The translations under genes were made by a program, and so were the position numbers. DNA of 57,105 nucleotides from Candidatus Yanofskyibacteriota bacterium (lineage in GTDB: Bacteria > Patescibacteriota > Minisyncoccia > 2-02-FULL-40-12 > IGHO2-12-FULL-4). The notes beneath the pieces were generated by a model. It was given only the letters and a program-made list of their open reading frames with translations, was not told where the DNA came from and did no database searches. Shown here piece after piece: positions 913-38,070 of this stretch (position 1 is its first letter; each line of letters starts with the position of its first letter). The stretch is from the NCBI GenBank assembly GCA_016185525.1, contig JACPNK010000004.1:17712-74816 (forward strand). The letters run 5' to 3'.

Positions 913-1255
913 TCCAAAAATTTGAACAAATCAACTTCCCTGCTGATTTTCCAGTAATTTTGTTAATAAAAACCAACAAAATTTTAATTCAGATTGTCAC
1001 CTCAAAGGGTACTGAATTATTAACTGGGTTTTCCAGCATATAAGCCAAGTTTTTCCTTATTGCCTTACAGCAATAGGTCGCGCCCCCGCCCGAAGTGGCG
1101 GGAGTTTCCACGAAGTTAGGAGCCCCTTATTCGCCAGGTACCGTCACTCCGCCAAAAGGCGGATTCTTCCCTGGCAAAAGCGGTTTACAACCCTAAGGCC
1201 TTCTTCCCGCACGCGGCGTCGCTCGATCAGGCTTTCGCCCATTGTCGAAATTTGT

Positions 1256-1979
1256 CCACAATCACTTGTAGTATAGACTATGTCTTCTTCCCCAAAATAA
1301 TTGAGGAGCTAGCATATTATGGCCTCTAAAAAGAGCGCCATCCAAGTTTAACTAAACTTGAGTCGTTACGGGGTTAATGACCTCATAATTCTTTTTACCG
1401 CCTGCGCCTGAATTTATTTTCCTAATTTCCAGTGCCATGGAAAATAACTTTTCGAAATCTTTATCGGAGAGTGAACTTCTGATGTTCACTAGACCCTGAT
1501 CAAAGATATCAATCATGGCAAGCATTATTTTTGCTTGCCTTTGTTTAAGAATCAAATGCGGTAAAAGTCGCTCTAATACTCTTTTCAGATCTTCACGTTT
1601 CTGAATAACTAGTTCCGAAAGATTATGAGTTGGAGTGTATCTGACTGAACCAACCTTGCCCAAAGATTCTTGAAGCAGAAGCATTAAATTTTTATGCCTA
1701 ACATGCTGTGTAAAATTTATTTTCAATCTCACACGATATGGAAACCGGCGTCTATCTGGCCGCTTTTCTATAACAGCTACAATAGATCCGTCTCCATCAA
1801 GAAAACCGGCAATATATTGATCCGATACATTTTTTCCATTAACTTCCCACGGCGTTGTCTCCATATGGGGTATTATACTATAACCACTTATTTATGGTTA
1901 TAGTTGCTTATCCACAAAGAGGTTTCGCCGTTATAAGCTAGATTTTACTTCAACGTTACCGCTGAAGGAGACAAAATTT
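1256..1979 (-). other. Group I intron in 16S rRNA at about E. coli position 328
   Basis: 5' exon GGAACTGAGAU pairs with downstream GUCUC with a terminal U.G (P1-like); S-like motif GACATAGTCTA near the 3' end; contains a LAGLIDADG ORF. Confidence 0.85.
1352..1864 (-). CDS. LAGLIDADG homing endonuclease (intron-encoded)
   Basis: 170 aa with YIAGFLDGDGSI motif, inside the 16S intron, same strand as rRNA. Confidence 0.9.
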   Translation of the reverse strand: METTPWEVNGKNVSDQYIAGFLDGDGSIVAVIEKRPDRRRFPYRVRLKINFTQHVRHKNLMLLLQESLGKVGSVRYTPTHNLSELVIQKREDLKRVLERLLPHLILKQRQAKIMLAMIDIFDQGLVNIRSSLSDKDFEKLFSMALEIRKINSGAGGKKNYEVINPVTTQV

Positions 1980-2103
1980 ATCTCAGTTCCGTCGTTGGGG
2001 GCCGTGCTCTCACACCCCCTACCCGTCATAGCCTTGGTGAGCCATTACCTCGCCAACAAGCTGATAGGACATAGGCCGCTCACCGAGCAGATTGCTCCTT
2101 TAA

Positions 2104-2227
2104 TCGTGCCTCGCTACCGCGAGCCACTGGGCCAAAGTCTAAAGTCAAAAGTCTAAAGCCAGAAAATTCTTGCCTTAGTCTTTAGTCATTAAGCTTTAGT
2201 CAGTGACTCACAATAGTGAAGCACGAT
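2104..2227. repeat. Expanded 16S V2 helix containing degenerate GTCTAAAGTC-type repeats
   Basis: Closing complement ATCGTGC/GCACGAT; inner tandem AAAGTCTAAAGTCAAAAGTCTAAAGCC ... GCCTTAGTCTTTAGTCATTAAGCTTTAGTC imperfect palindrome. Confidence 0.75.
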
Positions 2228-2234
2228 GCCATTG

Positions 2235-2266
<32 letters not shown>

Positions 2267-2503
2267 ATCTCGGTGGTACGTACCAATGTGTTACTAACTC
2301 GTTCGCCACTGTGCAGAGTATTGCTACCCTGCACCGTTCGACTTGCATGCATCATCCACGCCGCCAGCGTTCATCCTGAGCTAGGATCAAACTCTCAAAA
2401 TAATTCGTCTAAGCTTAGCCGAAAGCCAAAATTAGACGAATAGTAAGTCTAGTTGACTGTAATAAATAACAACCTATTCAATTCTCAAAATGCTTTCCCT
2501 AAA

Positions 2504-23101: not shown

Positions 23102-24655
23102 TATTTCCTGGACCACTTGCGGGTTTGCCTTGCCTTTTGTTGCCGCCATAACTTGGCCGACCAAAAATTTTAGAGATTCTGTTTTTCCTTTTTTGTAATC
23201 CTCAACGGCTTTGGGATTTTTAGCAACGACTTCCTCCACAGCTTTTTGCAATTCACCGGTATCAGAAACCTGGCCCAGATTTTTTTCTTTCATAATCGCT
23301 TCGGGATGCAGACCAGTCTCGGCCATTTCTTTCAAAACAGCTTTAGCTCCCGTAGAAGAAAGTTTCTCGTGAAAAATCAAAACCATAAGCTCGGCAAAAG
23401 CTTCAGGTGAAATTTTGAATCCTTCCAGTTCGTCAACTTCCAAACCCTTAGCGCTCATTAGCGACGGAAATTCTGTGATAATATAGTTAGCGGAAAGAGT
23501 ATGCAGTTTTGCTGGTAAATGGGCTTCTGTTTTTTCGTTTTGGTTTTGATGAATAACTTTTGCCGCTACATCAAGTTCTGTGGCAACTCTCTCGTAATAA
23601 TCCCCCAAATGCTTAGCAATGGTAAAAATTTCAATTTGAGAGTCATTTAGACCGTACTGTTTTTTAAATCTAATCTTCCTTCCTTCCGGCAATTCCGGCA
23701 TCAAATATTTAATATCTTCCAAATACTTCTCGTCAAAATTTAGTACCGGCAAATCCGGCTCTGGAAAATAGCGATAATCATGCGCCTCTTCTTTGCTTCT
23801 CTGACTGAAAGTTTTTTGTCCAGCTTCATCCCAACCCCGAGTTTCTTGTTTAACTTCTTTTCCCTCTTCCAGCAATTCTGTTTGTCTTTTAATTTCATAT
23901 TCCACAGATTGAGCCGCCGCTCTAATGGAGTTTAAGTTTTTAATCTCAACCTTCGTTCCCAACTTTATAACTTGGGACTTAGAACTTAGAACTTCCGGTC
24001 GAAGTGATATGTTCACTTCGATCCGGTATTGTCCTTTTTCCATGTTGGCATCCGAAACACCAAGATAACGCAAAATCAAACGCAATTTCTCGGCAAATTC
24101 TTTAACCTCTTCCGCGCTGTTTAAATCCGGCTCCGTCACAAGCTCCATCAACGGCACCCCTGCCCTGTTAAAGTCCACCAAGCTATGATCGCCTTTGCTG
24201 TCATGCTGAAGCCGCCCAGCATCTTCCTCTAAGTGAATCCGTGTGATTCGAATGCGCTTAAAGTCTAAGGTCGAAAGACTAATGCTCTGATTATTCTGGC
24301 CTTGGTCGTTAGTCTTTAGACTTTTGTCACTGATCTCCAACCAGCCGTTTGCGCAAAGCGGTCTTTTATATTGGGAAATTTGATAGCCTTTGGGCAAATC
24401 GGGGTAAAAGTAATTTTTTCGGTCAAAATTAGTCTGCTTAGCAATCTCACAATTCAAAGCAAAACCGACTAAAATGGTTTTCTTTATCGCCTCTTCATTT
24501 ATAACCGGGAGAACCCCCGGAAAACCCATACAAATAGGGCAAATGTTTGTATTCGGGTGTTTCTCGTCCGGATCGTTCAACGAATCGCAGAACATTTTTG
24601 TCCTGGTTTTCAGCTCTGCATGAATCTCCAGCCCGATTGTGGGTTTATAGTTCAT
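23078..24655 (-). CDS. gatB: Aspartyl/glutamyl-tRNA amidotransferase subunit B, with repeat-derived insertions
   Basis: IGLEIHAELKTRTKMFC, RITRIHLEEDAGRLQHD, DFNRAGVPLMELVTEPD. Confidence 0.96.
   Translation of the reverse strand: MNYKPTIGLEIHAELKTRTKMFCDSLNDPDEKHPNTNICPICMGFPGVLPVINEEAIKKTILVGFALNCEIAKQTNFDRKNYFYPDLPKGYQISQYKRPLCANGWLEISDKSLKTNDQGQNNQSISLSTLDFKRIRITRIHLEEDAGRLQHDSKGDHSLVDFNRAGVPLMELVTEPDLNSAEEVKEFAEKLRLILRYLGVSDANMEKGQYRIEVNISLRPEVLSSKSQVIKLGTKVEIKNLNSIRAAAQSVEYEIKRQTELLEEGKEVKQETRGWDEAGQKTFSQRSKEEAHDYRYFPEPDLPVLNFDEKYLEDIKYLMPELPEGRKIRFKKQYGLNDSQIEIFTIAKHLGDYYERVATELDVAAKVIHQNQNEKTEAHLPAKLHTLSANYIITEFPSLMSAKGLEVDELEGFKISPEAFAELMVLIFHEKLSSTGAKAVLKEMAETGLHPEAIMKEKNLGQVSDTGELQKAVEEVVAKNPKAVEDYKKGKTESLKFLVGQVMAATKGKANPQVVQEILTELFGL
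24260..24326. repeat. Dispersed GACTAAAGTCTAAGG-type repeat inside gatB coding sequence
   Basis: AAAGTCTAAGGTCGAAAGACTAATGCTCTGATTATTCTGGCCTTGGTCGTTAGTCTTTAGACTTTT; encodes extra SDKSLKTNDQGQNNQSISLSTLDFK between LEI and RIRITRIHLEEDAG. Confidence 0.75.
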
Positions 24656-24678
24656 GTTGGTTATCTTATCACCATTTT

Positions 24679-25194
24679 TTATAACAAAAAAGAGCCCACA
24701 AGGACTCTTTTTTTTAGAGTCAAGAACGTATAAGGGACTGGATTTTCATCGTCTGGATCATGTACTTCTTTTTCGACCTCCAGCCAATCATCTACATCAA
24801 ATTCCGGGAAAAACGCATCCCCTTCAAATTGAGCATCAACTAGCGTCAGATACATTTTGACTGTGGCAGAAAGAAATTGCCGGTATATTGTCGAACCCCC
24901 GATAACCATAACTTCTTCTGTATTTTCTTGAGCTGCATAATAAAGCGCTTCTCTAACAGAATGTGCAACAACGATATTTTTTAAGTGGCACTCTAAGCCC
25001 CTCGTTATAACAATGTTTAGACGTCCGGGAAGTATTTTTCCAATAGACTGGTGTGTCGTACGGCCCATAATGATGGGCTTTCCCATTGTGCATTCCTTGA
25101 AATGCTTAAGATCTGCCGGAAGAAGCCACGGTATACGACCCTTGTTTCCGATAACTCGATTATTATCAAACGCCGCAATTATTGAGATGGTCAT
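24679..25194 (-). CDS. folA: Dihydrofolate reductase
   Basis: ISIIAAFDNNRVIGNKGRIPWLLPADLKHFK, IIMGRTTHQSIG, VMVIGGSTIYRQFL. Confidence 0.95.
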   Translation of the reverse strand: MTISIIAAFDNNRVIGNKGRIPWLLPADLKHFKECTMGKPIIMGRTTHQSIGKILPGRLNIVITRGLECHLKNIVVAHSVREALYYAAQENTEEVMVIGGSTIYRQFLSATVKMYLTLVDAQFEGDAFFPEFDVDDWLEVEKEVHDPDDENPVPYTFLTLKKRVLVGSFLL

Positions 25195-35911: not shown

Positions 35912-36544
35912 ATGCCATACATTTTGTTAGATGAATCTGGTGATTTGGGATTTTCTTTTAGGAAGGGCTCTTCTAAGTTTTTTATTGTTACTATAATTTT
36001 CACTGAATCAAAGAGAAATTTGGAGAAAATTGCCAGAAGAGTTCATAAGACATTAAGGAAGAAGTTTAAGAAAGTCGGCGTTTTGCATGCCTACAAAGAA
36101 GCATCGATAACTCGACAGAGGTTACTAAAAGATTTAGCGAAAACAGACTGCGGTATTTTGTTGGTAATTTTAAATAAAAAAAAGGTTTTTACAAAGTTAC
36201 AAGACGAAAAGTCAGTTTTATATAACTATGTTACGAATATTTTATTGGAGCGCTTAATGAATAAGAAGCCTATCCCTATTGATAAACCCATTATTCTTAT
36301 TGCCGCTCAAAGAGAAACTAACAAATTCCTGAACGAAAATTTTAAGAGTTATTTGTCTAAACAAATTAACAATAATCACAAAATTTCACTAAAGGTAGAG
36401 ATTGCTACTCCAGCGGAAGAGAAGTCGTTACAAGTAGTTGATTTTGCTTCTTGGGCGATATTTCGTAAATATGAGTTCGGAGATGATAGTTACTATAATT
36501 TGGTCAAAGTGAGAATTATCGAGGAAGCATCACTTTTCCCCTAA
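35912..36544 (+). CDS. DUF3800 family protein
   Basis: MPYILLDESGDLGFSFRKGSSKFFIVTIIF ... LQVVDFASWAIFRKYE. Confidence 0.85.
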   Translation: MPYILLDESGDLGFSFRKGSSKFFIVTIIFTESKRNLEKIARRVHKTLRKKFKKVGVLHAYKEASITRQRLLKDLAKTDCGILLVILNKKKVFTKLQDEKSVLYNYVTNILLERLMNKKPIPIDKPIILIAAQRETNKFLNENFKSYLSKQINNNHKISLKVEIATPAEEKSLQVVDFASWAIFRKYEFGDDSYYNLVKVRIIEEASLFP

Positions 36545-36832
36545 AAACAAGGCCCCGCCGCTTGAATGAGACGCCTTACGGTATCCCAACGGTGAGGTCT
36601 TACTTGTTAATCCTATTGTATCACAATATAGGTCCGTAATGCAAATTCTGTTGATAAAGTTAGAACCGCTCTTAAAGGATTCAAAAAAACAAGCATTTCC
36701 TTGAAGGAAACGTATACTTACATTTCTGAAGAGCAAATAAATATAGTATCTGAAAGTTCTAGGTTAGAACTTTCAAGTAATGGCGTGGATAAAAGAAAAG
36801 AAGGCATTTCGGTGCCTTCTTTTCCGTCTCTG

Positions 36833-36951
36833 TTGCGGGGGGAGGATTTGGTTTCGCCTCTCGTCGGCTTCCGCCTCCTCGAGCTAACCACCGCCTCGCG
36901 TCCCGACTCCCCGAAAGGGTCGTCGGGACAAGCTCCGGCGTTCAAATCCTC
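36833..36951 (-). repeat. Branched hairpin element F ending in a copy of the tRNA-fMet 3' end, followed (minus strand) by a terminator
   Basis: TTGCGGGGGGAGGATTTG (36833-36850) identical to tRNA-fMet 37041-37058; outer stem GAGGATTTG/CAAATCCTC 9 bp perfect; inner GTCCCGAC/GTCGGGAC. Confidence 0.7.
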
Positions 36952-37080
36952 ATGAAAGTGGCGCAAGCCACTTTCTTCCCCTCGCGAGCATAAAGCAAAA
37001 TTAAAACCGCCTAAAAAAGGCGGCTTTAATTTTTCTTATGTTGCGGGGGGAGGATTTGAACCTCCAATCTTTTGGTTATG

Positions 37081-37869
37081 CTTACTACTTCAGCTTTCGC
37101 TGCTCCTTTCGGATTTGTAGTCTGGACTATCCCTTTACCAGTCCTTATTTTATTAGAACAAGGATTGTGGTATCTGCCAACTAGTCTCTACACCTGCCTA
37201 CGCCAAAGGCTGCGGCAGGCAAGCCTTCTCTCTTGCGAAGTAAGCTTGCTTGCAATCCAAAGCTTTAGCGAAGGATTGGTTCGGGATTACCACTATTATC
37301 CAAACAAGACAGTAAAGGCTTCCCCGAATTTGACAGATTATCTTCTAAGCTATTCCTAACTTAGACGCCCTAAGTTGTTTAAAATACGAATTCTTGGTAT
37401 ACTACCAACACATGAGAAAGTCTTTAACTAGAAGTGCTTCTATCTACAAGTACAAAAATCCTTCGGGCGACCCTTTTGATTATAAACCAGAAATTAGTAG
37501 GGAATTGGAAATTGTAGGCTTGCTACTCTGGGTCACAGAAGGAGATCGAACACAGTTATCTCTTGCAAACGGAAACCCCACTATAATTCTACGTTATCTG
37601 GATTTTCTCCGTAAGATTTGTGGTCTAAAAGAAGAAAAAATCAAAGCTGTAGTACACTGCCACGATACATTGCCCTACAAAAAATGCCTGGGATATTGGT
37701 CTGAAATTACCAACATACCAAAAACCCGATTTACAAAACCTTACATTAAACCGGACAAAGGAGGACATAGAAAATATCCCTATGGCATCCTTAGAATAGC
37801 GGCAATGAATATCAAGCTAATCCGTATTTTTAACGAACGATTGAGAGAGTTGGGTCTCTCTAAAGATTG
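37081..37869 (-). other. Group I intron in tRNA-fMet (between U33 and C34 in the best-fitting reading)
   Basis: Minus strand AGGTGTAGAGACTAGTTGG (R-like) and AAAGGGATAGTCCAGACTACAAATCC (S-like); 5' exon ends in U, intron ends in G. Confidence 0.88.
37375..37403 (+). promoter_or_regulatory. Promoter of the intron-encoded antisense ORF
   Basis: TTGTTT-17 nt-TATACT, 8 nt before ATG 37412. Confidence 0.65.
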
Positions 37870-37870
37870 A
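37412..37870 (+). CDS. LAGLIDADG-like/homing-endonuclease-related protein, antisense to the tRNA intron
   Basis: EIVGLLLWVTEGDRTQLSLANGNPTIILRYLDFLRKICGLKEEKIKAVVHCHD resembles degenerate LAGLIDADG-fold proteins. Confidence 0.65.
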   Translation: MRKSLTRSASIYKYKNPSGDPFDYKPEISRELEIVGLLLWVTEGDRTQLSLANGNPTIILRYLDFLRKICGLKEEKIKAVVHCHDTLPYKKCLGYWSEITNIPKTRFTKPYIKPDKGGHRKYPYGILRIAAMNIKLIRIFNERLRELGLSKD

Positions 37871-37995
37871 GCCAAACGAGATACCGGATTTCTCTACCCC
37901 GCGATATTTAAAACCTATTTGAAAATAGGTTTTAAAATTATAACAGTATTGAAAAATCAAGTAAAGTCATATAAAATTTAACTTAACTAAAATAT

Positions 37996-38070
37996 GTCGG
38001 CGTAGCTCAATGGCAGAGCGAGCGTTTCATAAGCGCTAGGTCGCAGGTCCGATTCCTGCCGCCGACACCA
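37996..38070 (+). tRNA. tRNA with CAT anticodon (elongator Met or Ile2)
   Basis: GTCGGCGTAGCTCAATGGCAGAGCGAGCGTTTCATAAGCGCTAGGTCGCAGGTCCGATTCCTGCCGCCGACACCA; encoded CCA. Confidence 0.95.

Follow-up and report, generated by a model that had tools for sequence, protein, structure and literature searches.

The free-standing endonuclease gene SegB of T4-like phages lies in the tRNA region. Free-standing endonucleases of phages have been proposed as the source of intron-encoded endonucleases (PMC3984707, PMC13096335). Group I introns in tRNA-fMet genes are already known (PMC1995217, PMC8450103). Furthermore, some tRNAs of circularised genomes, mostly those of CPR bacteria, have group I introns, as mentioned in passing in one report, whose passages on them give no detail on introns, ORFs or fMet (PMC8172020). 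The locus described here is a tRNA-fMet gene of a CPR bacterium (Candidatus Yanofskyibacteriota), interrupted by a group I intron that carries an opposite-strand ORF related to genes adjoining tRNA genes across the phylum.

The window, i.e., the whole stretch of DNA that was analyzed, is 57,105 nt long. An earlier note on this DNA had placed an interrupted tRNA-fMet gene at positions 37041-37903, and both coordinates and anatomy hold according to ARAGORN and the fold of the joined exons, with the gene lying on the minus strand. With introns allowed, ARAGORN calls a tRNA-Met(cat) at c[37040,37903] whose intron measures 789 nt; after joining, the exons adopt an initiator tRNA fold with a CAU anticodon and a C1-A72 mismatch. 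The description as a textbook initiator is borne out for this mismatch and the CAU anticodon but not for the three G-C pairs of the anticodon stem. Only two of the three classic initiator pairs are kept and position 29-41 is U-A, so that “textbook” is slightly generous for this stem. The tRNA-fMet of another genome of the same genus (G001, a Ca. Yanofskybacteria MAG) also has U-A at 29-41. The features of the locus are collected in Table 1. Promoter-like sites such as the one listed there number three in the region, against 2.3 expected by chance, and are no commoner than in shuffles. Nineteen nucleotides of the tRNA-fMet 3′ end recur without mismatch at window positions 36832-36850, in the neighbourhood of a DUF3800 gene (35912-36544), with TTCAAATCCTC located about 90 nt beyond them. 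They form a fragment and no gene, and may be left over from an insertion or from a copied tRNA.

Table 1. Features of the interrupted tRNA-fMet gene, its intron and its surroundings, in window coordinates.
Feature	Position	Strand	Basis
Extended -10-like element TGGTATACT, ending 8 nt before the ORF ATG	37395..37403	+	comparison with G012
Opposite-strand ORF, 152 aa + TGA, inside the P1 loop	37412..37870	+	sequence; purifying selection; AF2 model
Neighbouring tRNA in divergent orientation, anticodon CAU, elongator-type	37996..38070	+	sequence match
Promoter-like site of tRNA-fMet, TTTACT-17-TATAAT with TG extension	37937..37965	-	consensus match only
tRNA-fMet 5′ exon, positions 1-33, ending in U33	37870..37903	-	sequence; ARAGORN on joined exons
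Group I intron, 789 nt, predicted splice site U33^C34, omega-G at 37081	37081..37869	-	exon joining; Rfam core; covariation; empty sites in G001 and G006
Proposed internal guide sequence GGGC (C34-G, U33.G, C32-G, G31-C)	37367..37370	-	pairing inferred
P2 hairpin CUAAGUUA-GGAA-UAGCUUAG, 8 pairs	37345..37364	-	covariation alignment
Group I catalytic core	37100..37391	-	Rfam RF00028
tRNA-fMet 3′ exon, C34 to discriminator A73, CCA unencoded	37041..37080	-	sequence; ARAGORN
Intrinsic-terminator-like hairpin directly 3′ of tRNA-fMet	36997..37033	-	consensus match only

The assignment of the intron to group I, as made in the earlier note, is supported by a model match and by covariation. The Rfam model Intron_gpI (RF00028), which had been suggested as a check, matches over its full length with 51.0 bits (E 2.4e-11; gathering score 50 bits). 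In an alignment of the window intron with four related introns, 95.5% of the cells of 41 core pairs are standard-paired and 23 of the 41 pairs have changed on both sides, including seven of the eight pairs of P2. None of 500 shuffles reaches the observed level, and slid controls collapse. The conserved core with P3, P4, P7, P8 and the helices beside them is in place. A folded stretch of 352 nt surpasses 98 out of 100 shuffles in stability (z -2.86).

The splice site is predicted at U33^C34 because, among the three possible joins, only this one gives a U at the 5′ exon end and a G at the intron end. Both are lacking for C34^A35 and A35^U36, and the ARAGORN boundary at position 35 would give neither. 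A GGGC motif directly before P2, located between the ORF and P2, is common to the sequences of five fMet/Met introns (the alignment of this region does not cover the G047 copy) and is proposed as the internal guide sequence. The resulting P1 of the window copy is short, its exon side consisting of two standard pairs and a U.G, with G30 unpaired or bulged. We also considered a P1 formed from the first 30 nt of the intron itself (CUC/GAG), in which U33 would face an A; the GGGC before P2 fits better. The intron is predicted to splice itself out and to restore the CAU initiator tRNA.

Related genomes show both empty and occupied sites. G001 encodes an uninterrupted tRNA-fMet at the orthologous place, with one flank 96% identical to the window over 203 bp and the other side (3′ exon) 100% identical over 42 bp. 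The same intron with an opposite-strand ORF, again in the P1 loop, is present in a member of another family of the same order (G012), and the genus-mate of the latter (G006) has an empty tRNA-fMet site, providing a second genus pair with presence and absence. The contamination estimate of G012 is 7%; its exons and flanks match those of G006. Besides G012, tRNA-fMet introns occur in G047 and G059, and G054 has an intron in another CAU tRNA. ARAGORN labels the introns of G054 and G059 as lying in Leu(caa), a label that we rejected as the 3′ exons read CATAACC, i.e., CAU. The contents of these introns differ. The G047 intron encodes, in sense orientation, a homologue of I-Ssp6803I (PF11645; PDB 2ost, E 9.6e-60). 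The G054 intron encodes an antisense HNH ORF (L040:1784-2149) whose orientation relative to the tRNA equals that of the window ORF. The G059 intron is short and no long ORF was seen in it.

Further introns were observed in the genome to which the window belongs (G000). Its tRNA-Asn(GUU) gene (G000:C2:86366-86637) is interrupted, apparently at U35^U36, by a group I intron that scores 55.4 bits with RF00028, and its tRNA-Phe(GAA) gene (G000:C6, about 24627-25142) contains one at U33^G34 with a score of 48 bits, just under the cut-off, and a length of 439 nt by ARAGORN. The 16S rRNA gene (window 1075-2394; G000:C5:15300-20100) is split by group I introns that contain LAGLIDADG-type ORFs. A match to a group II domain was seen immediately beyond the window, and the 23S gene on C2 holds several group I introns.

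The opposite-strand ORF reported in the earlier note is real. It shares 73% amino acid identity with its G012 counterpart, with 74, 86, and 47% identity at the three codon positions, a dN of 0.21 and a saturated dS, a pattern of purifying selection on the plus-strand protein. Since the common GGGC motif and P2 are located beyond the ORF, the ORF is placed in the P1 loop. Its start is the ATG at 37412, with a TTG at 37394 as a possible alternative, and its TGA stop codon (37868-37870) straddles the exon boundary, the A being the complement of tRNA U33. The -10-like element upstream has a counterpart in G012 (TGGTATAAT, 6 nt before the ATG). Its closeness to the ATG implies a nearly leaderless mRNA. 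On its own, the element is weak, as a two-hexamer scan did not find it. The AF2 model of the protein is confident (pLDDT 88, pTM 0.81). There is no Pfam match, and a search of the genome contigs with this single protein returned no relative.

The genome of the host comprises 812,249 bases in eight contigs with a completeness estimate of 100%. Its tRNA matches above the cut-off number 44; in the tRNA-bearing stretches, ARAGORN assigns types to 45 genes. Neither the covariance model nor the 45 ARAGORN calls nor a pattern search identified a further initiator-type tRNA in this genome. The pattern for an intact tRNA-fMet, allowing up to two mismatches, has no match there and does match G001, and the pattern for the intron-bearing 3′ exon has exactly one match. 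The earlier note had made dependence on splicing conditional on this gene being the sole initiator, and had named a search for other tRNA-fMet genes as a check and a second intact copy as counter-evidence. No such copy was found in the host genome, and therefore splicing would have to supply the initiator tRNA; a single ribozyme, by splicing a single tRNA, apparently sustains translation initiation in this bacterium. It is highly improbable that the ORF is a decayed passenger, or that the intron is non-functional and another, unseen tRNA-fMet serves translation. An additional copy could hide in a gap of the eight-contig assembly, but the completeness estimate and the three concordant searches speak against it, as do the intact, covarying core and the purifying selection on the ORF.

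The window ORF belongs to a protein family whose main domain is covered by no Pfam or NCBIfam model. Matches in the relatives are almost exclusively to HTH domains, which the free-standing members carry at the N-terminus and the window ORF lacks, and matches to phrogs are weak or unnamed. A Glu-Gly pair (E43-G44) is invariant in 27 family sequences. Over the motif region, the family profile matches LAGLIDADG_3 proteins (profile-profile E 1.3e-4, probability 54%) and I-DmoI (E about 0.01), and two of the 27 members have a weak match to PF14528. A second family model is confident too (pLDDT 94). Foldseek searches of the PDB and of viral models with both structures gave no significant match, and no LAGLIDADG enzyme is among the 50 best matches shown; the ORF is therefore not filed as LAGLIDADG. 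A comparison with the profile of LAGLIDADG ORFs of the rRNA-intron type detected no similarity either. The LAGLIDADG link of the motif region is taken as a lead but not as membership. Separately, we observed a free-standing LAGLIDADG_3 ORF (L127:997-1776) and a LAGLIDADG-type ORF (L134:346-786) that end at or just inside the 5′ ends of tRNA-Tyr and tRNA-His genes.

Members of the ORF family adjoin tRNA genes. All of the first 28 relatives have a tRNA gene no more than 122 bp away, and 24 of them are located directly upstream of it on the same strand. In a second set of weaker relatives, 19 out of 20 lie within 150 bp and the last one at 252 bp. When the phylum was searched with a profile, 53 of 192 genomes had family members, and all 30 loci taken from this search adjoin tRNA genes. 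In total, all 76 distinct loci are neighbours of tRNA genes, and for 69 of them a same-strand tRNA gene is directly downstream or overlapped, with gaps between -94 and +109 nt, mostly within 35 nt. A gap of -6 is recurrent and makes the ORF stop fall at tRNA positions 8-10. In the host genome, a free-standing member on contig C6 is located after tRNA-Phe and 10 nt before tRNA-Gly. From this arrangement, the adjacent tRNA gene is the presumable target of the free-standing members.

The sequence clades of the family follow the tRNA isoacceptor and not the host, the hosts in the tree coming from 47 families. The tRNA label changes 18 times on the tree, compared to at least 46 times in 200 shuffles, and all 13 Ile(UAU), eight Trp and seven Gly(UCC) members form clades with hosts of many families. 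The window ORF is a long branch that is weakly placed (71) beside a Tyr/Thr-tRNA group. As this is a tree of a quick kind to which no host phylogeny was fitted, the isoacceptor clades may also reflect vertical descent at conserved places. The family could consist of vertically inherited, tRNA-specific host factors, e.g., transcription regulators of the adjacent tRNA gene, with the intron copy being a stray duplicate. The N-terminal HTH of the free-standing members and the strict correspondence of one clade to one isoacceptor agree with such a role, which we nevertheless regard as unlikely given that the family is distributed patchily in the phylum sample and that a mobile-type intron of two host families contains a conserved member. 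A further argument against it is that genomes of a single genus differ in the presence of the ORF and also in the tRNA gene. Upstream of tRNA-Ile(UAU), G000 and G001 share 92-94% sequence identity. This similarity ends about 9 nt ahead of the gene, where G001 has an insert of about 767 nt with a family member; homology to G000 resumes further on. Despite flanks of about 92% identity, the tRNA-Ile(UAU) of G001 is very different from that of G000 (L166 vs. L165). This suggests that the family ORF and the downstream tRNA-Ile of G001 moved in together as a unit.

A role of the ORF product as a maturase or RNA-binding protein that aids the splicing of this intron, and of tRNA introns more generally, seems quite unlikely to us. 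LAGLIDADG proteins can be maturases, as in the Thermotoga neapolitana case (PMC3984707), and some relatives adjoin intron-bearing tRNA genes (Thr-GGU, Phe). Most of the 69 directly downstream tRNA genes, however, are called without an intron, so that splicing help cannot be the general role of the family, and the gene in the window is antisense in the P1 loop, outside the core. Both the maturase and the host-factor readings are less likely than homing.

Our best reading is that the intron was made mobile, in at least two lineages, by a tRNA-directed homing-endonuclease-like gene. We consider it probable that the intron-borne ORF is such a gene, captured by a self-splicing group I intron in the sole tRNA-fMet gene, and that its free-standing relatives act alike at their own tRNA genes. 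The tRNA-fMet transcript would contain the 789-nt intron, which would excise itself between U33 and C34 and leave a CAU initiator tRNA, keeping the insertion harmless. The ORF, a member of a family with HTH and LAGLIDADG-like motif, would lie antisense in the P1 loop and have a -10-like element to itself, and its product would act as a site-specific homing endonuclease that cuts the intron-free tRNA-fMet allele, upon which repair copies the intron along with the gene. Free-standing members would cut at their own tRNA gene, leading to copying of the gene and a replacement tRNA.

With slightly better than even confidence, we extend this reading to a phylum-wide homing-endonuclease-like family with one clade per isoacceptor, which spreads by swapping the host tRNA for a cassette of the gene and a divergent tRNA, and which at the initiator tRNA was captured antisense, without the DNA-binding domain, in a group I intron. 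If the cassette reading is true, selfish genes repeatedly replace essential tRNA genes across a whole bacterial phylum. This would help explain the intron-rich, divergent tRNAs of CPR genomes and offer a set of enzymes whose candidate targets are their tRNA-gene neighbours, of about 16 kinds.

The ORF family adjoining tRNA genes across the phylum is undescribed and lies beyond what the earlier note could see. The open-licence literature yielded no report on antisense members of this family or on clades that are linked to tRNA genes and specific to isoacceptors, and no papers on CPR tRNA introns or tRNA-linked endonucleases other than those cited here. The note's statement that tRNA-fMet group I introns are known from cyanobacteria agrees with the Synechocystis PCC 6803 system and its endonuclease I-Ssp6803I (PMC1995217). 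The window intron resembles this system in its position in the anticodon loop of the initiator tRNA and in its ORF of about 150 codons, and an I-Ssp6803I homologue resides in the fMet intron of the relative G047. The window ORF, however, is antisense and of an unrelated family, has no PD-(D/E)XK endonuclease match in Pfam, and is found in a CPR bacterium. The group I introns of CPR rRNA genes (PMC11270868) share the kind of host and have small LAGLIDADG-type ORFs, and several such rRNA introns of group I occur in the host genome itself; the study is confined to rRNA genes, with no mention of tRNA in its text, and the family of the window ORF is dissimilar to the rRNA-intron-type LAGLIDADG profile. 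As in free-standing homing endonucleases of phages and collaborative homing (PMC3984707, PMC13096335), the endonuclease-like gene adjoins its putative target gene, but here on bacterial chromosomes, in an undescribed protein family and with clades tied to single tRNA isoacceptors. The intron ORF links free-standing endonuclease-like genes beside their target with intron-borne ones, which are usually seen apart, and provides natural material for testing how introns acquire mobility genes.
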